From Apoderus coryli (taxonomy: Eukaryota > Arthropoda > Insecta > Coleoptera > Attelabidae): a stretch of DNA of 64,000 nt. Position 1 is the first letter of the stretch. Each line of letters starts with the position of its first letter. Positions 3,346 through 61,460 of this stretch are shown here, piece by piece. The stretch is taken from assembly GCA_911728435.2 (NCBI GenBank), contig OU452208.1, forward strand, positions 3,472,001 through 3,536,000, written 5' to 3'. A model generated the notes under the pieces. It had not been told where the DNA came from and ran no database searches. It saw nothing but the letters and a program-made list of their open reading frames with translations. Position numbers and translations under genes: made by a program.

Positions 3346-4310
3346 TTTTTTTTTTATACAGAAATAAGTAGTTTTAAAAAAATGTCTGTCTGTCGGTATC
3401 CACGAAAACGCAAAAACCACTTGACAGATTTTAACCAAATTTGGTACAAAAATACTATTGGACATGGCAAGGAGCTGATTAGATTTTGGGAAACATTGAG
3501 CGTAGGCAAGGGGTTTAAAAGAGGGTTCAAAAATTAAACAAATCATAGTTCTTAAAGTTATCCGAAATGTTGATTAGTTTTTTGTGCGTTTAATTAAATA
3601 TAACCTCAAATATTTAACCTAAATAATTAGACCACATTGACATACGAATAAAGTGTAGAATGAGGTAAAAAGGTTAGAAAAAAACGTACTTCTTAAAACT
3701 AGCAGAAATATTAACTAGTTATTTATAGCTTTGATAGAATATAACATATAAAATGTGTTATAAATAACTTGTTTTCATAAACGTTCGTAAATAGTGTAAA
3801 AGGGGTCAAAATAAAAAAAATATATACTTCCTAAGTTTATTCAAAATACGGACTTATTTTTCATAGTTGTAATAGAATATATCCTAAAAAATGTTACATA
3901 AAAGAATTGGTTCACAGAGGCGTTCGAAAATAGTCTAAAAAAGGGTCAAAAACGAAAAAAAAATGTTTCCCAAATATACCAGAAAAATTGGCTAATTATA
4001 TATAGCTTTGATATAAGATAACATAAAAAATGCAGCATAAAATTTTTATTTACATAGGCGTTCGTAAATAGTAGAAAAGGAGGCAAAATAAATTTTACAA
4101 TAAAAAAATCAACTATTTTGCGTACAAGAACTTGGCGTAGAAGATGCCTCCAAAGAGAAGAAAAAGGAACAAAACCCGATACTTAAAAAAATAGCTCATG
4201 TCTAAAACAAAAAAAATATATATAAATTTTAGATAAATGACAAAAAGGTCATAAAATTATTAGTTTTACACTTAAATATCGAGAGCTATTCGTGCCTCAG
4301 TTTATTAACT
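3346..4310 (+). repeat. Family A, shorter copy 2 in tandem
   Basis: After a poly-T run, the GTCTGTCTGTCGG block and the downstream units recur (GGCGTTCG-type motifs near 3780, 3918, 4058), ending with GAGAGCTATTCGTGCCTC near 4290. It is about 960 bp against about 1860 bp for copy 1, having fewer internal units. The shared junction motif suggests the two copies arose as a tandem duplication or adjacent insertion. Confidence 0.7.
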
Positions 4311-9030: not shown

Positions 9031-9353
9031 TATATAGTGTCGGCAAATGCACTCAAAGAAACGACGGCATTAGCCTAGAAAAAAGCGCACCGCTCAACGA
9101 AAGCTACGTGTTGGAGAAAATAAACAGTGAGTCCTTTCCATATTATTATTGTTTATTCCATTATAAATATATTCACAGATGCAAACTTTGCATTAGTAAT
9201 GGTTATTTGTTGATTTTCATTTGTGTGTTACATTTCATCATTAATAACTAGCAATATTTTCTGAATACATTATAAAATATACTTATATTTTGTTAATTGT
9301 CGTAAATTGTGCTTTTCAACGTAGATATTTACTCAGATTTTAGTTAAATTAAA
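9031..9353 (+). other. Untranslated leader of the BEL/Pao element
   Basis: AT-rich leader between the primer site and the polyprotein ATG. No ORF or clear structure was seen. Confidence 0.6.
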
Positions 9354-12300
9354 ATGACTGAAGTAATAGAAACTTTAATTCGTAAACGAGGGTCGATCAA
9401 AGCAAAATTATCAATATTTAGAAAATACATAAACAATTTAGAGGCAACATTTCCGGATAAAATTATTAATGATGGCAATGTATTAGTAGAACTTCAAACT
9501 CGTTTAAATAGATTTGCAAATGTAGTAGATGAATTTGAAACTATACAGGGTTCAATCGAAGAAATAGCTTTAAATTTAGATGAACAATATATTGAAAGAG
9601 AAACATTTGATATCGAATTTCATTCAATTTTAACGAAGGCAAAAACGATTTTTAGTACTAACAATATCGTTCAAGTTGAAAATGTCAAAGTGGCAAACTT
9701 AGACATAGAGCATGAGAGCAGCGTTAGATTACCAGTCGTAAACCTACCCAAATTCGATGGTAGTTACGAAAAATGGATAGAGTTTCGCGAAATTTTCGAA
9801 TCTTTAGTACACAATAATACGTCAATATCAACTGTTCAAAAGTTTCATCATTTACGTTCTAGTTTAACCGATAGCGCTTTAGATGTACTAGACGATATAG
9901 AATTTGACAAAAAGAATTATCGCGACGCGTGGGAATTAATGTGCGACACATTTAACAACATTCGTATGTTAACACAAAATCATGTAAAAAGCCTATTCAC
10001 CATCCCGTTAATTAATCAAGAATCGGCAGACGCTCTACGTAAGTTAAAAAACACAGTTTCAAAACATCTTAGAGCTCTTAGGGTATTAGAGGAACCCACA
10101 AATCAATGGGATACTCTAATAATATATCTGATTTATACAAAGTTGGACACCAAAAGCAAACGTGAATGGGAACAAGCTAAAAAGAATTTTGAAAAACCGA
10201 AACTAGCAGATATGTTCGCCTTTTTGAAAGATCGCGCTGATTTTCTGCAAGCTATAGAATTCGAACAAGAATCTTTCAAGAAGCCGAGTAAATACAAATC
10301 TGAAAATAAAACAAAATCTTTTATTAGTACACAAGCTAGCTGCGTGTTTTGCAAAAAAGAACATTACATTTATGCTTGTGAAGAGTTCAAAAAATTGTCC
10401 GTGAGTAACCGACTAACTGAAGTAAAAAAATTGAAATTATGCATAAATTGTCTCCGAACAGGGCATTTAATCAAAGATTGTAAGGCAGGCTCTTGCAGAA
10501 CTTGCAAAGGCAGACATAGCACTTTACTTCATATAGAAAAAACAAATAATAGTTCTCCAACCGAGGTAAACTGCTCTACCGGTAAACTATCTAATAGTAA
10601 CTCTCAAGTTTTATTGTCCACAATTCAAGTTTATCTGTTCGATAAACAAAAAGTCAAACATCTCGTTAGGGCATTACTAGATGCTGGAAGCCAAAGCAGC
10701 TTCATATCGACAAACCTAGCTACACGTTTACAACTGGACACATCACCAGTTGATATCAAAGTTTGTGGTTTAAATCAAACACAATCTAGCGTTAAATCCA
10801 GAACATTAGTCAACATACAATCACAGTACAGTAGTTTTCATATTAAACTTAATTGTTTAGTTGTACCCGACATAACAGGAACTCTTCCTAATTTCTCTGT
10901 CAACTCCAACTCGTTGAATATCCCAACAAACATTGAATTGGCAGATACTAAATTCAATATTCCAGGCAAAATAGATATGCTAATTGGAGCTGACAAATTT
11001 TGGAGTTTAATGTGCGTAGGACAAATCAAACTTAATGATCAAGGAACTATTCTTCAAAAGAGCAAGTTTGGTTGGATAGTTTCAGGCCCAGTAAACTGCA
11101 ATTTTCTGCAGTCTGTACATTGCAATTTAGTTTCTAATAGACTTGAAAGTAACATAGACCAACAGCTAGCGCGTTTCTGGGAAATAGAGGAAATTAACAT
11201 ACCCAAACCTTTTTCACAGGAAGAAAGGTTTACCGAATCGCATTTCATTGAACATTTTCAGCGTGATTCATCTGGAAAATTCATAGTGTCACTACCCTTT
11301 AAGCAGGATCCTAGCTTATTAGGTGACTCTTATGAAAATGCAAAAAAACGACTATTAGCTCTTGAACGGAAATTTCAGAAAAACCCGGAATTTAAACTCG
11401 AGTATTCGAAATTTATTAACGAATATATTTCCATGGGTCACATGATAAAGGTAAATATCGATAATGCATCAAATTCTTATTATCTACCCCATCATGGCGT
11501 CATCAAGCAAAGTAGTTTAACCACCAAGCTTCGAGTGGTATTCGATGCATCTTGTAAAACTAGTAGTGGGTATTCATTAAACGACACACTGGCTGTAGGT
11601 CCTACAATACAACCAGATCTTTTCACAACCTTGATACGTTTTCGTCAGTATCAGTTTGTCATAGGTGGCGACGTTGCCAAAATGTATCGTATGTGCCTAA
11701 TTAAACCTTCGGAACGTAGTCTACAACGTATTCTGTGGCGTGAAACTCCTGAAGGTCCTATCGAAAAATATGAATTAGCAACGGTAACATATGGTACTGC
11801 TCCAGGAGCATTTTTAGCTATTAGATGTTTACACCAATTAGGCATAGAATGTGCTAAGGAATCTCCAGTTGTCTCTGAAGTCATACAAAATCACTTTTAT
11901 GTCGATGATCTGCTGTCCGGTGCAGACACAAAACACGAAACAGTTTACATAGCTAACGAAGTATCGCGCGTCTTAAAAACTGGTGGTTTTATACTACGCA
12001 AATGGACTTCGAATTCTAGAGATATTTTATCACAAATAAATTCTCAAGACATTAGCAACTCAATTGATTTCGGTATTTCTGAATCCACAAAAACACTTGG
12101 TCTTATATGGAAATCTTCGCAAGATATGCTAGTATATAACGTTAGTCAAAACTCACACCCCCAAGTTACTAAACGAATTATTTTAGCAGACACTTCGCAA
12201 ATTTTTGATCCACTAGGCTTATTAAGCCCAACAATAATAATTCCAAAAATATTATTGCAAGAATTATGGTCTCATAAACTAGCATGGGATGAAAGCCTTC

Positions 12301-14438
12301 CGCTTGATTTACATAGTCGTTGGTTACAATTTCGAAATGAGCTTTATCATCTAAATGATCTGGTTATCGATAGAAGGGTCATTTCTGAAAATCATACAGA
12401 AGTACAAATCCATGGCTTCGCAGACGCATCCATGCGAGCATATGGTGCGTGTGTATATATTCGTTCAATATCACCAAATAATATCGTAGTCAACCTTATA
12501 TGCGCAAAGTCAAAGGTTGCACCATTGAAAACTCAAACCATCCCTAGATTAGAACTTATGTCAGCTCTTCTATTAGCAGAACTTGTCGCAAAGGTAAAAA
12601 ATTCCTTAACCGTGCCTATCAATAGTATTAGTTATTGGACAGACTCCATGGTTGTTCTTGGTTGGTTAAAAAATTCTCCAAACAAATTTCAAACATTCGT
12701 TGCAAATAGGGTTGCCAGAATCCAAGACCTTTGCCAATCGAACTCATGGCGACATATTTCTACGGATCAGAATCCAGCTGATTGCGTGTCACGTGGGGTT
12801 ATGCCTAACCAACTAAAATTTTTAACCTTATATTGGGAAGGTCCCAATTGGCTCCAGCTTAGTGAGGATAGTTGGCCTCAAAATAATTTACCTAGTATCG
12901 ATTTGCCCGAAATCAAAAGGGTAACTAAGGTTCATATTAATTGTGAAACAAGAAATCCTATATTTCAAAGATTTTCTACTTTAACCAAACTTGAACGAGT
13001 CACTGCCTACTGTAACAGATTTATTCGAAATAGTTTAAAACGGCCAGCAGATAGGATTGTAGGTCCGTTACGTCATTCCGAAATCTCAGATGCAACTAAA
13101 ATACTTTTCAAAATAGCACAAAGTGAAATGTTTCCCAGTGAAATAAATTCTTTTAAAACAAATGATTCGATTAATACTAAAAGTAGGTTGCTAAAATTAT
13201 CTCCATTTATAGACAAAGATGGTTTAATTCGCGTAGGCGGTCGTCTGGCCAATTCGCAGTTAAGCTATAAAAGGAAACATCCAATTGTTATAGCATCAGA
13301 TCATAAACTAACCCATCTCATTTTCCAACGAGAACATTTACGGCTCTTTCACGCTGGACCTCAACATTTACTATACTCTATTCGTGAAAAAATTTGGCCT
13401 TTATCGGGTAGAAACATTGCACGTAAAACGGTGTATAATTGCGTAAGATGTTTCAGAGCCAAACCTCGCGCAATATTCCCGTTAATGGGAAATTTGCCGA
13501 AGGACAGAATTACACCTGCTCCTGCCTTTCATACAACTGGCGTAGATTTCGCGGGCCCGTTTCAAGTCAAAGATAAAAAGGGTCGCGGATGTAAAGTAAC
13601 CAAATGCTACATAGCACTATTCATTTGTTTTGTTACGAAAGCATTGCATCTAGAACTTGTTTCAGATTTAACGATGGAATCGTTTTTGGCATCGTTAAGA
13701 CGATTTATCGCTAGACGCGGTAAACCAAAACAAATCTATTCAGATAATGGTAGTAATTTTGTATCAGCTCACGTAGAATTAGAAAATTTAGGCAAATTTT
13801 TGAAAATCAATTCAGATAATATAGTTACTTCCCTAGAAAATCAAGGAATTGCATGGTCATTTATACCTGCGCAATCTCCGCACTTCGGTGGCCTTTGGGA
13901 GGCCGGAGTAAAAACTGTAAAGCACCACTTACGACGAGTAGCTAGTAACGCAAAAATGACATTCGAACAGTTCAATACATTGCTGGTGCAAATCGAAGCA
14001 ATTGTGAATTCCCGTCCTCTCTCCCCAATCTCGTCAGACCCTTCCGATTTGACCCCACTCACACCAGCGCACTTTCTAATTGGCCGCTCGATGGTAGCAG
14101 CAGCTGATCCAGATCTGACTGACGTTCCTGATAATCGACTAAGCCACTTTCAATTAATCCAAAAGCTACAGCAACATTTTTGGACAAGGTGGTCTCGCGA
14201 ATGTATCAGCGAAATGCAGCAGCGAACTAAATGGTTGAAAACGGACGGTCAACTAAAGGTGAATGACTTGGTCCTTATAAAAGAGGACAATCAACCTCCA
14301 TTGAAATGGTGTCTTGGAAGAGTACAGTGTCTCCATCCAGGCAAAGACAATATTGCTCGAGTAGCTACAGTGAAAACTTCTACTGGTATTAAAAAACGAT
14401 CTTTTTCGAAACTGTGCCCATTACCGAGTAATGATTAG
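9354..14438 (+). CDS. BEL/Pao Gag-Pol polyprotein, 1694 aa, intact
   Basis: Single ORF with fused gag and pol. Visible in order: N-terminal helical gag region; DUF1759 gag core (LPKFDGSYEKW, about residue 131); Cys/His knuckles (CVFCKKEHYIYAC about 331, CINCLRTGHLIKDC about 363, then CRTC); aspartic protease of the DUF1758/A17 type (LLDAGSQSSFIS about 440); reverse transcriptase (VVFDAS about 728, catalytic FYVDDLLSG about 848); RNase H (FADAS about 1021, YWTDS about 1094); integrase HHCC finger (HLRLFHAG about 1329, CVRC); DDE core (VDFAGPF about 1396, YSDNGSNF about 1461, HFGGLWEAG about 1509); C-terminal DUF5641-like segment (about 1640). All key residues looked for are present and no env follows. 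Start is the first ATG after the leader. It should support its own copying if transcribed (inference). Confidence 0.95.
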   Translation: MTEVIETLIRKRGSIKAKLSIFRKYINNLEATFPDKIINDGNVLVELQTRLNRFANVVDEFETIQGSIEEIALNLDEQYIERETFDIEFHSILTKAKTIFSTNNIVQVENVKVANLDIEHESSVRLPVVNLPKFDGSYEKWIEFREIFESLVHNNTSISTVQKFHHLRSSLTDSALDVLDDIEFDKKNYRDAWELMCDTFNNIRMLTQNHVKSLFTIPLINQESADALRKLKNTVSKHLRALRVLEEPTNQWDTLIIYLIYTKLDTKSKREWEQAKKNFEKPKLADMFAFLKDRADFLQAIEFEQESFKKPSKYKSENKTKSFISTQASCVFCKKEHYIYACEEFKKLSVSNRLTEVKKLKLCINCLRTGHLIKDCKAGSCRTCKGRHSTLLHIEKTNNSSPTEVNCSTGKLSNSNSQVLLSTIQVYLFDKQKVKHLVRALLDAGSQSSFISTNLATRLQLDTSPVDIKVCGLNQTQSSVKSRTLVNIQSQYSSFHIKLNCLVVPDITGTLPNFSVNSNSLNIPTNIELADTKFNIPGKIDMLIGADKFWSLMCVGQIKLNDQGTILQKSKFGWIVSGPVNCNFLQSVHCNLVSNRLESNIDQQLARFWEIEEINIPKPFSQEERFTESHFIEHFQRDSSGKFIVSLPFKQDPSLLGDSYENAKKRLLALERKFQKNPEFKLEYSKFINEYISMGHMIKVNIDNASNSYYLPHHGVIKQSSLTTKLRVVFDASCKTSSGYSLNDTLAVGPTIQPDLFTTLIRFRQYQFVIGGDVAKMYRMCLIKPSERSLQRILWRETPEGPIEKYELATVTYGTAPGAFLAIRCLHQLGIECAKESPVVSEVIQNHFYVDDLLSGADTKHETVYIANEVSRVLKTGGFILRKWTSNSRDILSQINSQDISNSIDFGISESTKTLGLIWKSSQDMLVYNVSQNSHPQVTKRIILADTSQIFDPLGLLSPTIIIPKILLQELWSHKLAWDESLPLDLHSRWLQFRNELYHLNDLVIDRRVISENHTEVQIHGFADASMRAYGACVYIRSISPNNIVVNLICAKSKVAPLKTQTIPRLELMSALLLAELVAKVKNSLTVPINSISYWTDSMVVLGWLKNSPNKFQTFVANRVARIQDLCQSNSWRHISTDQNPADCVSRGVMPNQLKFLTLYWEGPNWLQLSEDSWPQNNLPSIDLPEIKRVTKVHINCETRNPIFQRFSTLTKLERVTAYCNRFIRNSLKRPADRIVGPLRHSEISDATKILFKIAQSEMFPSEINSFKTNDSINTKSRLLKLSPFIDKDGLIRVGGRLANSQLSYKRKHPIVIASDHKLTHLIFQREHLRLFHAGPQHLLYSIREKIWPLSGRNIARKTVYNCVRCFRAKPRAIFPLMGNLPKDRITPAPAFHTTGVDFAGPFQVKDKKGRGCKVTKCYIALFICFVTKALHLELVSDLTMESFLASLRRFIARRGKPKQIYSDNGSNFVSAHVELENLGKFLKINSDNIVTSLENQGIAWSFIPAQSPHFGGLWEAGVKTVKHHLRRVASNAKMTFEQFNTLLVQIEAIVNSRPLSPISSDPSDLTPLTPAHFLIGRSMVAAADPDLTDVPDNRLSHFQLIQKLQQHFWTRWSRECISEMQQRTKWLKTDGQLKVNDLVLIKEDNQPPLKWCLGRVQCLHPGKDNIARVATVKTSTGIKKRSFSKLCPLPSND

Positions 14439-31438: not shown

Positions 31439-31610
31439 TTTTTTTTTTATATAGTTACAAGTATAACATTTTAAATGACATTAAAATTATAAGAATAAGT
31501 ATAAATATTATTCGTATGTATTTTTATATAAAAAATATACCTAATTTACGGGAATTTCTCTTAATATGGTAATTTATTTTAGTATAGGACTACTAAGACA
31601 AAATGTCGTA

Positions 31611-32660
31611 TGTTTGCAAAGCGTTCCGGCTTTCAACAAACTATCTTAAACAGTTAATCGGATATCATGATATGTTTGCAAAGCGTTCCGGCTTTCAACA
31701 AACTATCTTAAACAATTAATCGGAGATCATGACATGTTTGCAAAGCGTTCCCGCTTTCAACAAACTATCTTAAACAATTAATCGGAGATCATGACATGTT
31801 TGCAAAGCGTTCCGGCTTTCAACAAACTATCTTAAACAATTCATCGGAGATCATGACATGTTTGCAAAGCGTTCCGGCTTTCAACAAACTATCTTAAACA
31901 ATTCATCGGAGATCATGACATGTTTGCAAAGCGTTCCGGCTTTCAACAAACTATCTTAAACAATTCATCGGAGATCATGACATGTTTGCAAAGCGTTCCG
32001 GCTTTCAACAAACTATCTTAAACAACTCATCGGAGATCATGACATGTTTGCAAAGCGTTCCGGCTTTCAACAAACTATCTTAAACAATTCATCGGAGATC
32101 ATGACATGTTTTCAAAGCGTTCCGGCTTTCAACAAACTATTTTAAACAATTCATCGGAGACCATGACATGTTTGCAAAGCGTTCCGGCTTTCAACAAACT
32201 ATCTTAAACAATTCATCGGAGATCATGACATGTTTGCAAAGCGTTCCGGCTTTCAACAAACTATCTTAAACAATTCATCGGAGATCATGACATGTTTGCA
32301 AAGCGTTCCGGCTTTCAACAAACTATCTTAAACAATTCATCGGAGATCATGACATGTTTGCAAAGCGTTCCGGCTTTCAACAAACTATCTTAAACAATTC
32401 ATCGGAGATCATGACATGTTTGCAAAGCGTTCCGGCTTTCAACAAACTATCGTAAACTATTAATCGGAGAACATTACATGTTTGCAAAGCGTTCCGGCTT
32501 TCAACAAACTGTTCCTCAACATTTAAATCTAGGCAACATCCAACTATTATAAACAAACTTGTTTGCAAAGCGTTCTGGCTTTCAACAAACTCAACATAAA
32601 CTATTTTATCGGAGAACAGGACAATTGTTATGATACAAGTTTACAAAGCATTTCGCCTTT
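31611..32660. repeat. 62-bp tandem satellite, about 17 copies
   Basis: TGTTTGCAAAGCGTTCCGGC starts at 31611 and recurs every 62 bp through 32479 (15 in-phase copies), then twice more in degenerate, longer units near 32561 and 32636. The central copies are almost identical; both edges are diverged, most on the right. Each unit can fold: GTTTG, AAAGC, a GTTCCG loop, GCTTT, CAAAC. Short ORFs across it are accidental. Confidence 0.95.
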
Positions 32661-50741: not shown

Positions 50742-50986
50742 TATTTATAATAATAATAATAAGATCTTTATTTCCAACATGCATGGCCCAATTACAGACA
50801 AAAAATTATAAATTAAATACAATTCAAATGATAAGGAACTTAATTACTAAACAAAACTTAACTACACAAAAATAATATTTATACTTAATTAATCTCACCA
50901 CAATAAAACCAATAAATAAATTAAATAATACCAATCATACCAATAAAAAATAGTACAAATGCCAACAATATCGAATAAAAAAAAAG
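50742..50986 (-). mobile_element. LINE 3'-end fragment
   Basis: (AAT)n followed by AAGATCTTTATTTCCAACAT is the reversed 3' tail of a LINE. It is followed by non-coding AT-rich 3' UTR; no RT is attached. Confidence 0.5.
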
Positions 50987-51065
50987 TATAATGATAATAA
51001 GAATTGCTTGTTACATAAAGCAACAAGACTTTAAGTTATGTTGGAAATTTATTTCACACTACCAT

Positions 51066-51116
51066 GCTTCCACCAGACGGCCGTTTCGTCGATCCACGAC
51101 TCATCAGTGGTGATCG
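51066..51116 (-). ncRNA. Canonical type-I hammerhead ribozyme (unit 1)
   Basis: Minus strand: stem I CACCA/UGGUG, core CUGAUGA, stem II GUCG-UGGAU-CGAC, GAAA, stem III from palindromic ACGGCCGU, cleavage after C (position 51076). All conserved core bases are present. Confidence 0.9.
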
Positions 51117-51401
51117 GCAGGCAGTGTGACCTAAACTTCCAACATTTACAAAGAGCTTATACTAGCACGAGAATTGATTGAGAAAGAGATGTTTGTGGCG
51201 ACACCTAGCGTGAACAGGCAATATGCCGGGTGAAACACAGTTCACTACGATGGCCGGACAAGAAGTAACAACTCCATTATATCCTATTGCCAACACTAGA
51301 TGCGCCCGAATCCCCTAGCAGGGAGGCTTTATTTAAGAATTGCTTGTTACATAAAGCAACAAGACTTTAAGTTATGTTGGAAATTTATTTCACACTACCA
51401 T

Positions 51402-51452
51402 GCTTCCACCAGACGGCCGTTTCGTCGATCCACGACTCATCAGTGGTGATCG
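51402..51452 (-). ncRNA. Canonical type-I hammerhead ribozyme (unit 2)
   Basis: Identical to unit 1, exactly 336 bp away; cleavage after position 51412. Together the two cuts would release a 336-nt monomer (51411 to 51076). Confidence 0.9.
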
Positions 51453-51550
51453 GCAGGCAGTGTGTTATAATGATAATAACAAAAAAAAAAGAAAAGTCTG
51501 CTTGCATCTACGATAACCGAGCACTGTAAGCACTAATAACTAACAGACAG

Positions 51551-52205
51551 ATGGTGTAGCAATGGGAGCCTAGATCTCAAGTGTTGTTGCACCACTCGTC
51601 ATGGAGGATTTAGGAACAGTTATAATAAATGCACTAGATTTTAAACCGTTTTTTTTTTCTACAGATACGTGGATGATTGTGTGGCCCTAATCCCTAACAC
51701 CCAAGTACACAACATTAAAAATAATTTCAACTCATACCATCCGAAACTACAATTCACTATTGAAATTGAACACCAGGACACACTGAATTTTCTAGACACC
51801 ACTCTTATAAAAACAGACAATTGTATAAAAAGAAAATGGTACACTAAACCAACCTGGTCACAACGATATACAAATTACTTGTCGAGCCACCCAATAAGCC
51901 ACAAAAAAAGTGTTATCATTAGTCTTGCAGGCAGAGCAATTAAGCTGTCGATCCCGAGTATAGAAAAGAAGCTATCGACGAAGGCAAAATAGCTCTAATA
52001 AAAAATAAGTATCCTAAAAAACTGATAAACACTATTTTCAAAAAACGAGTACATAAATTTTACAATGGGAATAACATAACACACAACAATGATAACAATA
52101 TTAATTTTATGTCCCTACCAGATATTAAAGGGTTGTCTGAAAATCTAAAGCAAAGATTAAAAAAATACAATATTACCGTCTGTCACAAAAGTAATAATTG
52201 TTTAT
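51551..52205 (+). pseudogene. Penelope-like element RT remnant
   Basis: TDGVAMG (51553), a stop, VVAPLVMEDLG, a frameshift, then FYRYVDDCVALIPNTQVHNI at 51659 (catalytic YVDD), KLQFTIEIEHQDTLNFLDTT, NYLSSHPISHKKSVI and RAIKLS, and in another frame DEGKIALIKNKYPKKLINTI to LPDIKGLSENLKQRLKKYNI at 52170. This order is the palm, thumb and linker of a Penelope RT. The C-terminal GIY-YIG endonuclease and any hammerhead belonging to it were not found. It starts about 70 bp to the right of the retrozyme. Too damaged to act itself. Confidence 0.85.
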
Positions 52206-53195
52206 AAGATCGATAATTCCCTTTTTTAATATAGGAATTATTTTGGCCTTTTTCCAATTCAATTATACAGTATACACCGCCGAAATCCTTATAGAATTCA
52301 ATGAACCATAAAATATCCGTCCCGAGATCTACCGTTAGTAAAGTAATTTATAAAATTTAAAAAAAAACAGGAAAAATATCACGTTATTTCCTTCAACCGG
52401 ATATATCTGCCTATAACAAAAATATATGGACAGAATAATAATTCATAATGAGATTTCAACACAACTGATAATATTACTTGAATGAATATTAAGTATGCAT
52501 TTGTTTCTTTATTTCGATTATAGTTTATACCCACACGCTTCTTCAGGAAGTTTTATCCATATTTAAATCAATAGTATCCTTTACACATTAATAGCAAAAA
52601 CCTTACCTACCGTATCTTACATAATTTTAAAAGTTAATGACACTTTATGGTAGGTCATATGGAAATAAACTGTTCCATATTGAAGTATAAAAGTAATATT
52701 TTTGTGACATTTTTATCATTTATGTTATATTTTTAGTATAGAAAGGGCATTGTATGTATTGTACTATTCGATAACCTGCAACTGTTATTTAAACACACTT
52801 CCTGTAATAGTTAATGTGTTATTAGTTATGTTTTAATCATTATATCATATGACACAAGATTCCTAAACATGGAGGGCACTGCACTTTCCTTAGTTGTTTA
52901 TATTAACACTCTCTAATCATGTCAACGACTGAGATTTAAGAGAAGTGATCTTTTACTTAGATGATTATGTTCTGAAAGAATAGTCGACGATAGAAAAAAA
53001 GCTGTTGTACCGAACGGATTAAATTCAATTATTTGCATTATTATCGGGTTTTATTGGAATTTACTGTTGGTGGCAAGCTATATTTCCAAACAAAATTTTT
53101 TTTTTATTGTAGACATCAGCTATCTTTTTTTCACGGACCCATATGGTACAAACATTTTTTGTCGTGTTTTTTACCACCAATTCAAATACTTAAAA
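52206..53195. other. Non-coding; contains a repeat shared with 35255-35375
   Basis: 52738-52855 matches the segment at 35255-35375, with a ~12-bp difference near 52755. The rest is AT-rich and unrecognised. Confidence 0.4.
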
Positions 53196-59574: not shown

Positions 59575-61460
59575 AAAATAAACTGTTGCCCTCGAGGCAC
59601 GAATAGCTCTCCATATTTAAGTGTAAAAGTAATAATTTGATGACCTTTTTGTCATTTATCTAAATTTAATAAATTTTTGTTTTGTTTTAGACATCAGGTA
59701 TTTTTTTTTAAGTATCGGGTTTTGTGCCTTTTTCTTCTCTTTGGAGGCACTATTTATACGCAGATATTTTATATTTCAGATCTAGGCCAAGTTCTTGAAC
59801 GCAAATTAATTGATTTTTTTTAGTTTTATTATAAAACTTATTTTGCCCCCTTTTCTACTATTTACGAACGCCTATGTAAACAAAATTGTTATGCTGCATG
59901 TTGTAGGTTATCCGTTAAGTGGTTTTTGAGTTATCACGGATACAAATTTTTTCTGACCCTTTTATAGAATTTTCACGGACGCCTATGGAACATTAATTTT
60001 TGTCGTGTATTTTTAACACCAATTCAACTAGTTAAATATAAAATTTTTTACATTTTAATTTTTTTTTTATTTTACCCATTTTTTTACTATTTACGAACGC
60101 CTATGTAAATAAAAATTTTATGCTGCATTTTTTAGGTTATCTTATATGAAAGCTATATATAATTAGCCAATTTTTCTGATATATTTGGGAAATATTTTTT
60201 TTTCGTTTTTGACCCTTTTTTAAGACTATTTTCGAACGCCTGTGTGAACTAATTCTTTTATGTAACATTTTTCAGGTTATATTCTATCACAACTATAAAA
60301 AATTATTCAATATTTCGGATAAGTTTAACAACTATGATTTTTTAAATTTTTGAACCCTCTTTTAAACCCCTTGCTTACGCTCAATGTTAATCACCACCTA
60401 TAAATATCCTGTAGTATTTTCGTACCAAATGTGGTTAAAATCCGTTAAGTGGTTTTTGAGTTATCACGGATACAAATTTTTTCTGACCCTTTTATAGAAT
60501 TTTCACGGACGCCTATGGTACATTAATTTTTGTCGTGTATTTTTAACACCAATTCATCTAGTTAAATATAAAAATTTTTACATTTGAACTTTTTTTTATT
60601 TTACCCCTTTTTCTACTATTTACGAACGCCTATGTAAATAAAAATTTTATGCTGCATTTTTTAGGTTATCTTATATCAAAGCTATATATAATTAGTCATT
60701 TTTTCTGGTATATTTGGGAAACATTTTTTTTTTCGTTTTTGACCCTTTTTTTAAACTATTTTCGAACGCCTGTGTGAACCAATTCTTTGATGGAATATTT
60801 TTTAGCTTATATTGTATCACAACTATGAAAAATTATTCCATATTTCGAATAAGTTTAGGAAATATATATTTTTTATGTTTTGACCCCTTTTCCACTATTT
60901 GCGAACGCCTATGAAAGTAAGTTATTCATGACACATTTTATAGGTTATATTCTATCAAAACTATAAATAACTAGTTAATATTTCTGCTATTTTTAAGAAA
61001 TACGTTTTTTTTAATCTTTTTTACCCCATTTTACACTATTTTCGAACGCCAATGTGGTCTAATATTTTATGTTCAATATTTTAGGTTATAATCAATTAAA
61101 TGCGTAAAAAATTATGCAGTATTTCGGATAAGTTTAAGAACTATGAATTTTTTAAATTTTTGAACCCTCTTTTAAACCCTTTGCCTACGCTCAATGTTTC
61201 CCAAAATCTAATCAGCTCCTTGCCATGTCCAATAGTATTTTTGTACCAAATTTGGTTAAAATCTGTTAAGCGGTTTTTGCGTTTTCGTGGATACAGGCAG
61301 ACAGACAGACAGACAGACATTTTTTTTAAACTACTTATTTATGTATAAAATGACCAAAAACAAGTATTTCCGGTGAAATTAAAAAAAAATTTTTTTTCAT
61401 GAAACTAATAGTCTCCATATATACATATATTACATATATGATATGGAGAGCTAAAAATTA
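59575..61460 (-). repeat. Family A, inverted copy 3
   Basis: Reverse complement of 1485-3345: it starts with TGCCCTCGAGGCACGAATAG (the counterpart of GCCTCGGGGGCAAC at 3330), has at least nine ACGAACGCCTATG / ACGGACGCCTATGG unit motifs between 59865 and 61050, the CAGACAGACAGACAGACAGA tract near 61300 and the CTCCATAT...ATATGGAG hairpin end at 61425-61450. Length agrees with copy 1. Confidence 0.8.

Follow-up and report, generated by a model that had tools for sequence, protein, structure and literature searches.

By which route does a small, non-coding, ribozyme-bearing repeat enter the chromosomes of an animal? For animal retrozymes this entry route is treated as open, as is the reason why Penelope-like elements (PLEs) carry ribozymes and inverted repeats (PMC7229834, PMC7761336); a PLE as the driver of retrozymes is merely a "strong candidate" (PMC7229834), and the role of the minimal hammerheads of PLEs is "still a mystery" (PMC7761336). 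Such a repeat lies in the window, i.e., the whole 64-kb stretch of Apoderus coryli DNA that was analysed, beside a fragment of a PLE (Table 1).

Table 1 Features of the retrozyme insertion and its surroundings, in window positions
Feature	Position	Strand	Remarks
Left target site duplication copy TATAATGATAATAA	50987..51000		final 3 nt also element sequence
Retrozyme insertion (single arm, 1.39 units)	51001..51464	-	5' end 51464 (unit position 284)
Retrozyme insertion 3' end	51001-50998	-	site A, unit 75-78
Single extra T separating the right duplication from the element 5' end	51465..51465		sequence
Right target site duplication copy TATAATGATAATAA	51466..51479		
Hammerhead ribozyme 1, type-I	51070..51113	-	RF00163; predicted cleavage 51076/51075, placed from known core
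Hammerhead ribozyme 2, type-I	51406..51449	-	RF00163; predicted cleavage 51412/51411
336-nt monomer, predicted double-cleavage product	51076..51411	-	GC 44%; longest ATG frame on circle 49 aa
Priming site A, internal copy	51328..51337	-	unit 75-84: C, then TTAAATAAA
Priming site B	51173..51187	-	unit 225-239, TCTTTCTCAATCAAT region
Left flank, interspersed repeat	50746..50985		at least 48 matches from 40 of 86 first-look candidates scored, window included
Penelope-like element fragment, 5'-truncated	51540..52207	+	RYVDD reverse transcriptase motif, by eye; opposite orientation to ribozymes

The feature is a metazoan-type non-LTR retrozyme, a kind already known: a tandem, non-coding repeat with a 336-bp period and a GC content below 50%, which fits the range of ca. 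150-450 bp. The original prediction described one 336-bp unit followed by part of a second, with two canonical hammerheads, and both descriptions were borne out, the two ribozymes being of type I and 336 bp apart. A perfect direct repeat (50998-51128 = 51334-51464; 131 bp, 100% identity, offset 336) forms the terminal overlap of the element and is itself part of the repeat unit, and the Rfam model Hammerhead_1 gave minus-strand matches to both ribozymes over its full length (model 1-45; 32.3 bits, E 1.6e-5). As Rfam's gathering score, 34, exceeds this value by 1.7 bits, a strict scan of the window at the gathering threshold listed no hammerhead. The circular junction proposed at 51076/51411 is correct for the minus strand, which the prediction had left out, as the place of predicted cleavage.

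The flanks had been read as a 14-bp target duplication. TATAATGATAATAA does stand on both sides, but the duplication measures 11-14 bp because the TAA of its left copy (50998-51000) also occurs in the 131-bp repeat. The word is confined to 50987 and 51466, with no further copy in the window on either strand. That the element was inserted, another part of the original prediction, gains support from duplications at sister loci and from a diverged, related empty site at another locus. For the latter, the window flanks were joined with one duplication copy and matched against the window and the fetched loci; positions 16-208 of locus L027 run straight through the insertion site (74% over 206 columns, 26 gaps, E 9.9e-32) and contain one ATAATGATAAT. 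This single-copy stretch is a diverged paralogue and not an allele, and some of its gaps adjoin the site, so that we regard it as supporting and not final evidence.

Other repeats of the window were recorded alongside. Tandem repeats of 138-141 bp at 1728-2865, 3481-3733 and 60058-61209 lie near both ends in opposite orientation, and two retrozymes elsewhere (L012 and L028) inserted into this repeat. A 62-bp tandem array occupies 31610-32510 (14.5 copies, 97% matches), and an uninterrupted 1696-aa frame extends over 9348-14438, the first part of which matches DUF1759/DUF1758 and an aspartyl protease, presumably the domain set of BEL/Pao-type LTR elements.

A search of the 428-Mb genome revealed at least 39 further retrozyme loci besides the window, and the family comprises at least 220 unit-level matches from the 40 of 1,394 first-look candidates that were scored. 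Our census comprises 40 loci (the window and 39 fetched loci grouped from the matches listed), classed by eye, with unit positions counted from the predicted cleavage site. Most loci are built of two arms in opposite orientation: 27 have one arm ending at a site A and the other at a site B, three combine A with some other end (L019, L040 and L047) and one is an A/A pair, while eight have a single arm and one is complex. A head-to-head orientation holds for every one of the 31 two-arm loci. Single arms end at A in four cases (the window, L014, L031 and L042) and at B in four (L016, L020, L026 and L027); as the sample favours large arrays, the share of one-arm loci is probably underestimated. 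In 4/40 loci (L019, L040, L047 and L044) an outer end lay outside both sites or escaped classification. Arms are mostly multimeric, the longest reaching 7.9 units, and short second arms occur in L010 (43 nt), L011 (54 nt), L024 (76 nt) and L041 (94 nt). Against this background the window copy, announced as a complete retrozyme, is supported as a retrozyme by its Rfam matches and near-identical copies; it is complete only in a relative sense, given that two opposed arms are found in 31/40 of the loci sampled in this by-eye census and the window has a single arm of 1.39 units.

Several loci deserve separate mention. The A/A pair (L029, 1863-3048) has perfectly inverted flanks and forms a long palindrome, perhaps an inverted duplication or an assembly artefact. 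The complex locus (L044, 637-2947) is a tandem cluster of three same-strand retrozyme blocks ca. 650-700 bp apart, satellite-like in appearance, where a target duplication was looked for and not found; it does not enter the A/B counts. L009, L013, L028 and L044 are accompanied by further small or diverged pieces, which were not treated as loci; the one at L028 is arranged plus-then-minus with its neighbour, at a distance of 220 bp. Arms of nearly whole turns occur in L015, L016, L018 and L036 (3.00, 2.01, 2.00, 6.01 and 5.00 units), as if copying had ended on reaching its own start.

The outer ends of the arms are fixed. Across the 27 A+B loci, A ends fall at unit positions 77-84 and B ends at 229-240, except in L018 (249). 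Among the 28 pairs with both ends at A or B, 27 are A+B (p 1e-7 versus random pairing), L029 being the only other. A direct duplication was found at, or a few nucleotides from, the A and B ends of every A+B locus (27/27), with a length of 12 bp in 13 loci, 13 bp in six, 14 bp in four and 16 bp in one, and 8, 9 and 10 bp in one each; these three short ones could be due to chance. Among the eight one-arm loci a clear end duplication is present in three (the window, L014 and L042), L016 and L020 have a duplication 12 and 6 nt off the ends, and the duplication search in L026, L027 and L031 found none longer than 4 bp. Related stretches that read through the insertion site were recovered for 7/27 A+B loci (L011, L012, L018, L028, L033, L036 and L043). 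The two cleanest are those of L018, which sits in a ca. 110-bp tandem repeat whose neighbouring units read through (best 98.8%), and of L028, which matches the window repeat at 60956-61209 at 95.7%.

The target itself is symmetric. When the 27 loci are aligned with the A arm placed right, AAC precedes and GTT follows the duplication, i.e., an AAC-N12-GTT-like motif, with A at -3 in 21/27, C at -1 in 14/27, T at +2 in 21/27 and T at +3 in 23/27 (p 2e-5 or less each), and also A at -2 in 18/27 (6e-4) and G at +1 in 10/27 (0.006), all being post hoc values. A symmetric target with a 12-nt stagger is what would be expected of two equal nicks leaving two 3' overhangs. The target letters moreover match the RNA for at least three bases past CAATTCTT in 11/27 loci versus 4% by chance, so that the RNA template extended beyond the join, in the manner of a circle or a multimer.

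Both arms of a locus appear to come from one sequence. In the 22 of 27 A+B loci whose arms were both long enough, and with 12 nt trimmed at the arm ends, arms of the same locus differ at 11 of 6,554 sites (0.17%) versus a permuted mean of 0.69%, a value as low being reached in 0/20,000 permutations; L037 accounts for four of these 11 differences and L046 for three. In several loci a private variant is repeated from unit to unit across both arms: L033 has 94T (6/6 covering units), L023 has 55A (6/6), L022 has 107A (3/3), L017 has 58C (14/14), and L036 has 58C (10/10), 183A (10/11) and 280G (11/11). Contrary cases are L015, where 42C is confined to one arm (2/3 units), and L037, in which no variant is common to units or arms. 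Two circles of identical sequence are indistinguishable from one in this comparison, and later gene conversion between the arms could have homogenised them.

From these sequences, ends, duplications and shared variants we infer a cleavage, a circle, an enzyme and an order of events, and we postulate that PLE-type machinery probably uses both 3' overhangs of a staggered break to copy a circular RNA into DNA, with the window copy as a one-arm product. A multimeric transcript would be cut by its own hammerheads into 336-nt monomers, as in the known kind of element, and these would be ligated into circles. A Penelope-type protein with a reverse transcriptase and a GIY-YIG endonuclease would then make a staggered cut at AAC-N12-GTT-like sites, leaving 3' overhangs of ca. 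12 nt, as the insertion scars suggest. Site A of the circle (..CAAUUC/UUAAAUAAA) would pair with one overhang and site B (..CUCUUUCUC/AAUCAA) with the second, and the two overhangs would prime reverse transcription on the same RNA circle, with several turns of copying possible. Joining of the two cDNAs 5' to 5', at no fixed position, would yield head-to-head arms between duplications of ca. 12 bp. Where a single overhang is used, a single arm would result; the window copy would then have been primed at A and stopped after 1.39 turns. L1 twin priming likewise makes inverted copies from two cDNAs started on two target strands, as proposed here, but it uses a linear poly(A) RNA and its priming sites are not fixed.

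The template may instead have been a linear multimeric transcript and not a circle. This is compatible with the sequences, and genomic multimers exist as a possible source of transcription; we nevertheless consider it unlikely, as the same private variants recur throughout the units of both arms (L033, L023, L017 and L036) and every such transcript would bear several hammerheads. As for the circle on which both overhangs would prime, RNAfold gives it -110.6 kcal/mol and leaves sites A and B with a predicted unpaired probability of mostly ca. 0.8 or higher. In the minimum-energy fold the ribozyme core is drawn into another hairpin and the catalytic stem II/III is not formed, the isolated ribozyme behaving likewise. 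Two ribozymes could pair through the palindrome ACGGCCGU; in amphibian retrozymes, type-I hammerheads whose helix III is weak are reported to act as dimers (PMC7229834). A diverged retrozyme hammerhead was also seen on the reverse strand of L071 (724 on the reverse complement), where stem II reads GTTG/CAAC versus GTCG/CGAC, a compensatory change.

The PLEs of the same genome have a closely similar insertion anatomy. With the window fragment as query, 150 scored matches were obtained from 1,924 candidates, and at least 14 of the matches listed form opposed pairs within ca. 3.6 kb, all minus-then-plus and none plus-then-minus among these matches, by eye. Twelve pairs were examined, L060 as a whole and the ends of 11 more. 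L060 has two frames, 608 and 613 aa long (RVT_1 1.2e-8, GIY-YIG 6e-7), and its arms differ by one mismatch and one gap in 2,395 columns. Eleven of the 12 pairs are head-to-head with one tailed and one untailed arm and a duplication of 12-15 bp, those of L077/L078 (within a TA repeat) and L075/L076 (within a tandem array) being less certain; the ends of the twelfth (C11) were not resolved. The 3' extension measures 33 nt in L060, and the difference between arms is ca. 30 to 47 nt in other pairs. On the tail side a pyrimidine directly precedes the duplication in 11/11 pairs and the third base is a purine in 10/11, which resembles the AAC of the retrozymes. The right flank of the PLE target shows no GTT consensus in the 11 pairs, only the RAY-like left flank being common to both, and the PLE 3' ends examined gave no clear match to retrozyme sites A or B.

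Candidate minimal hammerhead cores were seen in these PLEs as well: the pattern CTGA[A/G]GAAG..GAAACGT is present in 18 of the 37 PLE pieces fetched (L048-L084), many of which are short ends, and stem II is complementary by eye with group-specific letters (GGCT/AGCC, GTTAC/GTAAC and GACAAA/TTTGTC). Rfam did not report the core of L060, Pfam gave no family for the short PLE piece in the window, and a search of PDB sequences found no PLE relative at E 0.01. That piece was rejected as the source of the ribozymes, being a separate truncated element in opposite orientation, and the retrozyme, non-coding and without reverse transcriptase or GIY-YIG domains, is not itself a PLE. Two short words are common to PLEs and retrozymes: GTAACAAG, near site A, and AGAAAGAGATGT, which in L060 (5314-5325, and 740-751 on the other strand) stands in PLE sense beside the candidate minimal hammerhead and in the retrozyme is antisense at site B (window 51181-51192). 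The sharing of AGAAAGAGATGT possibly reflects RNA-RNA pairing, or chance. Given the shared opposed arms, two different 3' ends, stagger of ca. 12 bp and, as candidate cores in the PLEs, type-I hammerheads, we consider PLE-type machinery the likely driver of the retrozymes and two-overhang priming the likely reaction.

A LINE could also have driven the insertions, by a single target-primed reverse transcription of the circle, with the inverted arms arising from later template jumps or recombination. Frames resembling those of LINEs are common in the window, as judged by eye, one-arm loci make up 8/40 of the census, and Nematostella retrozyme repeats with 15-bp duplications were likened to LINEs by their authors (PMC4918200). 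What makes this decidedly unlikely in our view is that in 27/28 classed pairs each arm has its own fixed outer 3' end, with the duplication at both, and that the local PLEs, the elements surveyed for comparison, share the head-to-head pairs of one tailed and one untailed arm.

Inverted arms might also be made by self-priming or fold-back on one template, as was proposed for rotifer PLEs in a published account of head-to-head repeats with junction palindromes (PMC3846280). The two L060 PLE arms do start within ca. 40 nt of each other, and in 4/27 retrozyme pairs no more than 15 unit positions separate the inner ends (0 in L009; the junction alignment of L021 is unsafe). Over the 27 pairs the inner 5' ends nevertheless mostly fall at different unit positions, with a median circular distance of 105 versus a uniform expectation of 84, and the 3' ends differ too. 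The junction overlaps in L021 and L045 are alignment artefacts, and overlap lengths were not used. Since coinciding 5' ends are the exception, fold-back is disfavoured for the retrozyme arms, and we hold it to be very improbable. Satellite-like DNA expansion by unequal crossing-over and inversion, which the tandem units and the L044 cluster without duplication might recall, is hardly credible in place of retrotransposition given the duplications at 27/27 A+B loci, the dispersed sites and the related empty sites for 7/27 of them and the window.

Metazoan non-LTR retrozymes (Cervera and de la Peña 2020, PMC7229834) consist, like those found here, of tandem non-coding repeats (ca. 170-400 nt, less than 50% GC) that carry type-I hammerheads, in genomes with PLEs; unlike here, the available text mentions neither inverted arms nor fixed 3' ends nor a symmetric target of 12 bp, and the word "inverted" occurs 0 times in the main text. 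PLEs with GIY-YIG of Adineta vaga (PMC3846280) form head-to-head inverted pseudo-LTRs with an optional tail on one, as here, and differ in encoding, as PLEs do, a reverse transcriptase and an endonuclease that the retrozyme lacks. Their duplications are 8-10 bp in several copies and absent in others, compared with 12-15 bp in the local PLEs, and their inversion was ascribed to self-priming on an antisense template and not to the two-overhang priming proposed here; the word hammerhead is absent from that paper. Plant LTR retrozymes (PMC4918200, PMC7229834) are likewise non-autonomous and carry hammerheads, and they have circular RNA intermediates such as we infer here, but they differ in type-III hammerheads, LTRs, 4-bp duplications and a length of 600-800 nt. 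The retrozyme duplications of 8-16 bp (11-14 in the window) exceed those 4 bp, and a plant-type LTR retrozyme was ruled out by hammerhead type and duplication length. Among the titles and opening parts of abstracts of the openly licensed literature, no report was found of opposed retrozyme arms or of twin priming on circular RNA.

A bolder version of the same idea, which we offer tentatively and consider rather doubtful, is that a hammerhead-made circle is the obligate template of Penelope-type insertion, primed at two dedicated sites by the two 3' overhangs of a symmetric staggered cut, with rolling reverse transcription building the arms of retrozymes and PLEs alike. If true, it would account for the hammerheads of PLEs, for their inverted arms and for the "tail" that is present on one arm only. 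In the reading that we consider likely, the genome of Apoderus coryli would preserve the footprint of the insertion reaction, i.e., two fixed priming sites, a symmetric 12-bp cut and arms derived from one sequence, and retrozymes and PLEs would be linked through a common insertion anatomy, beyond their mere co-occurrence.
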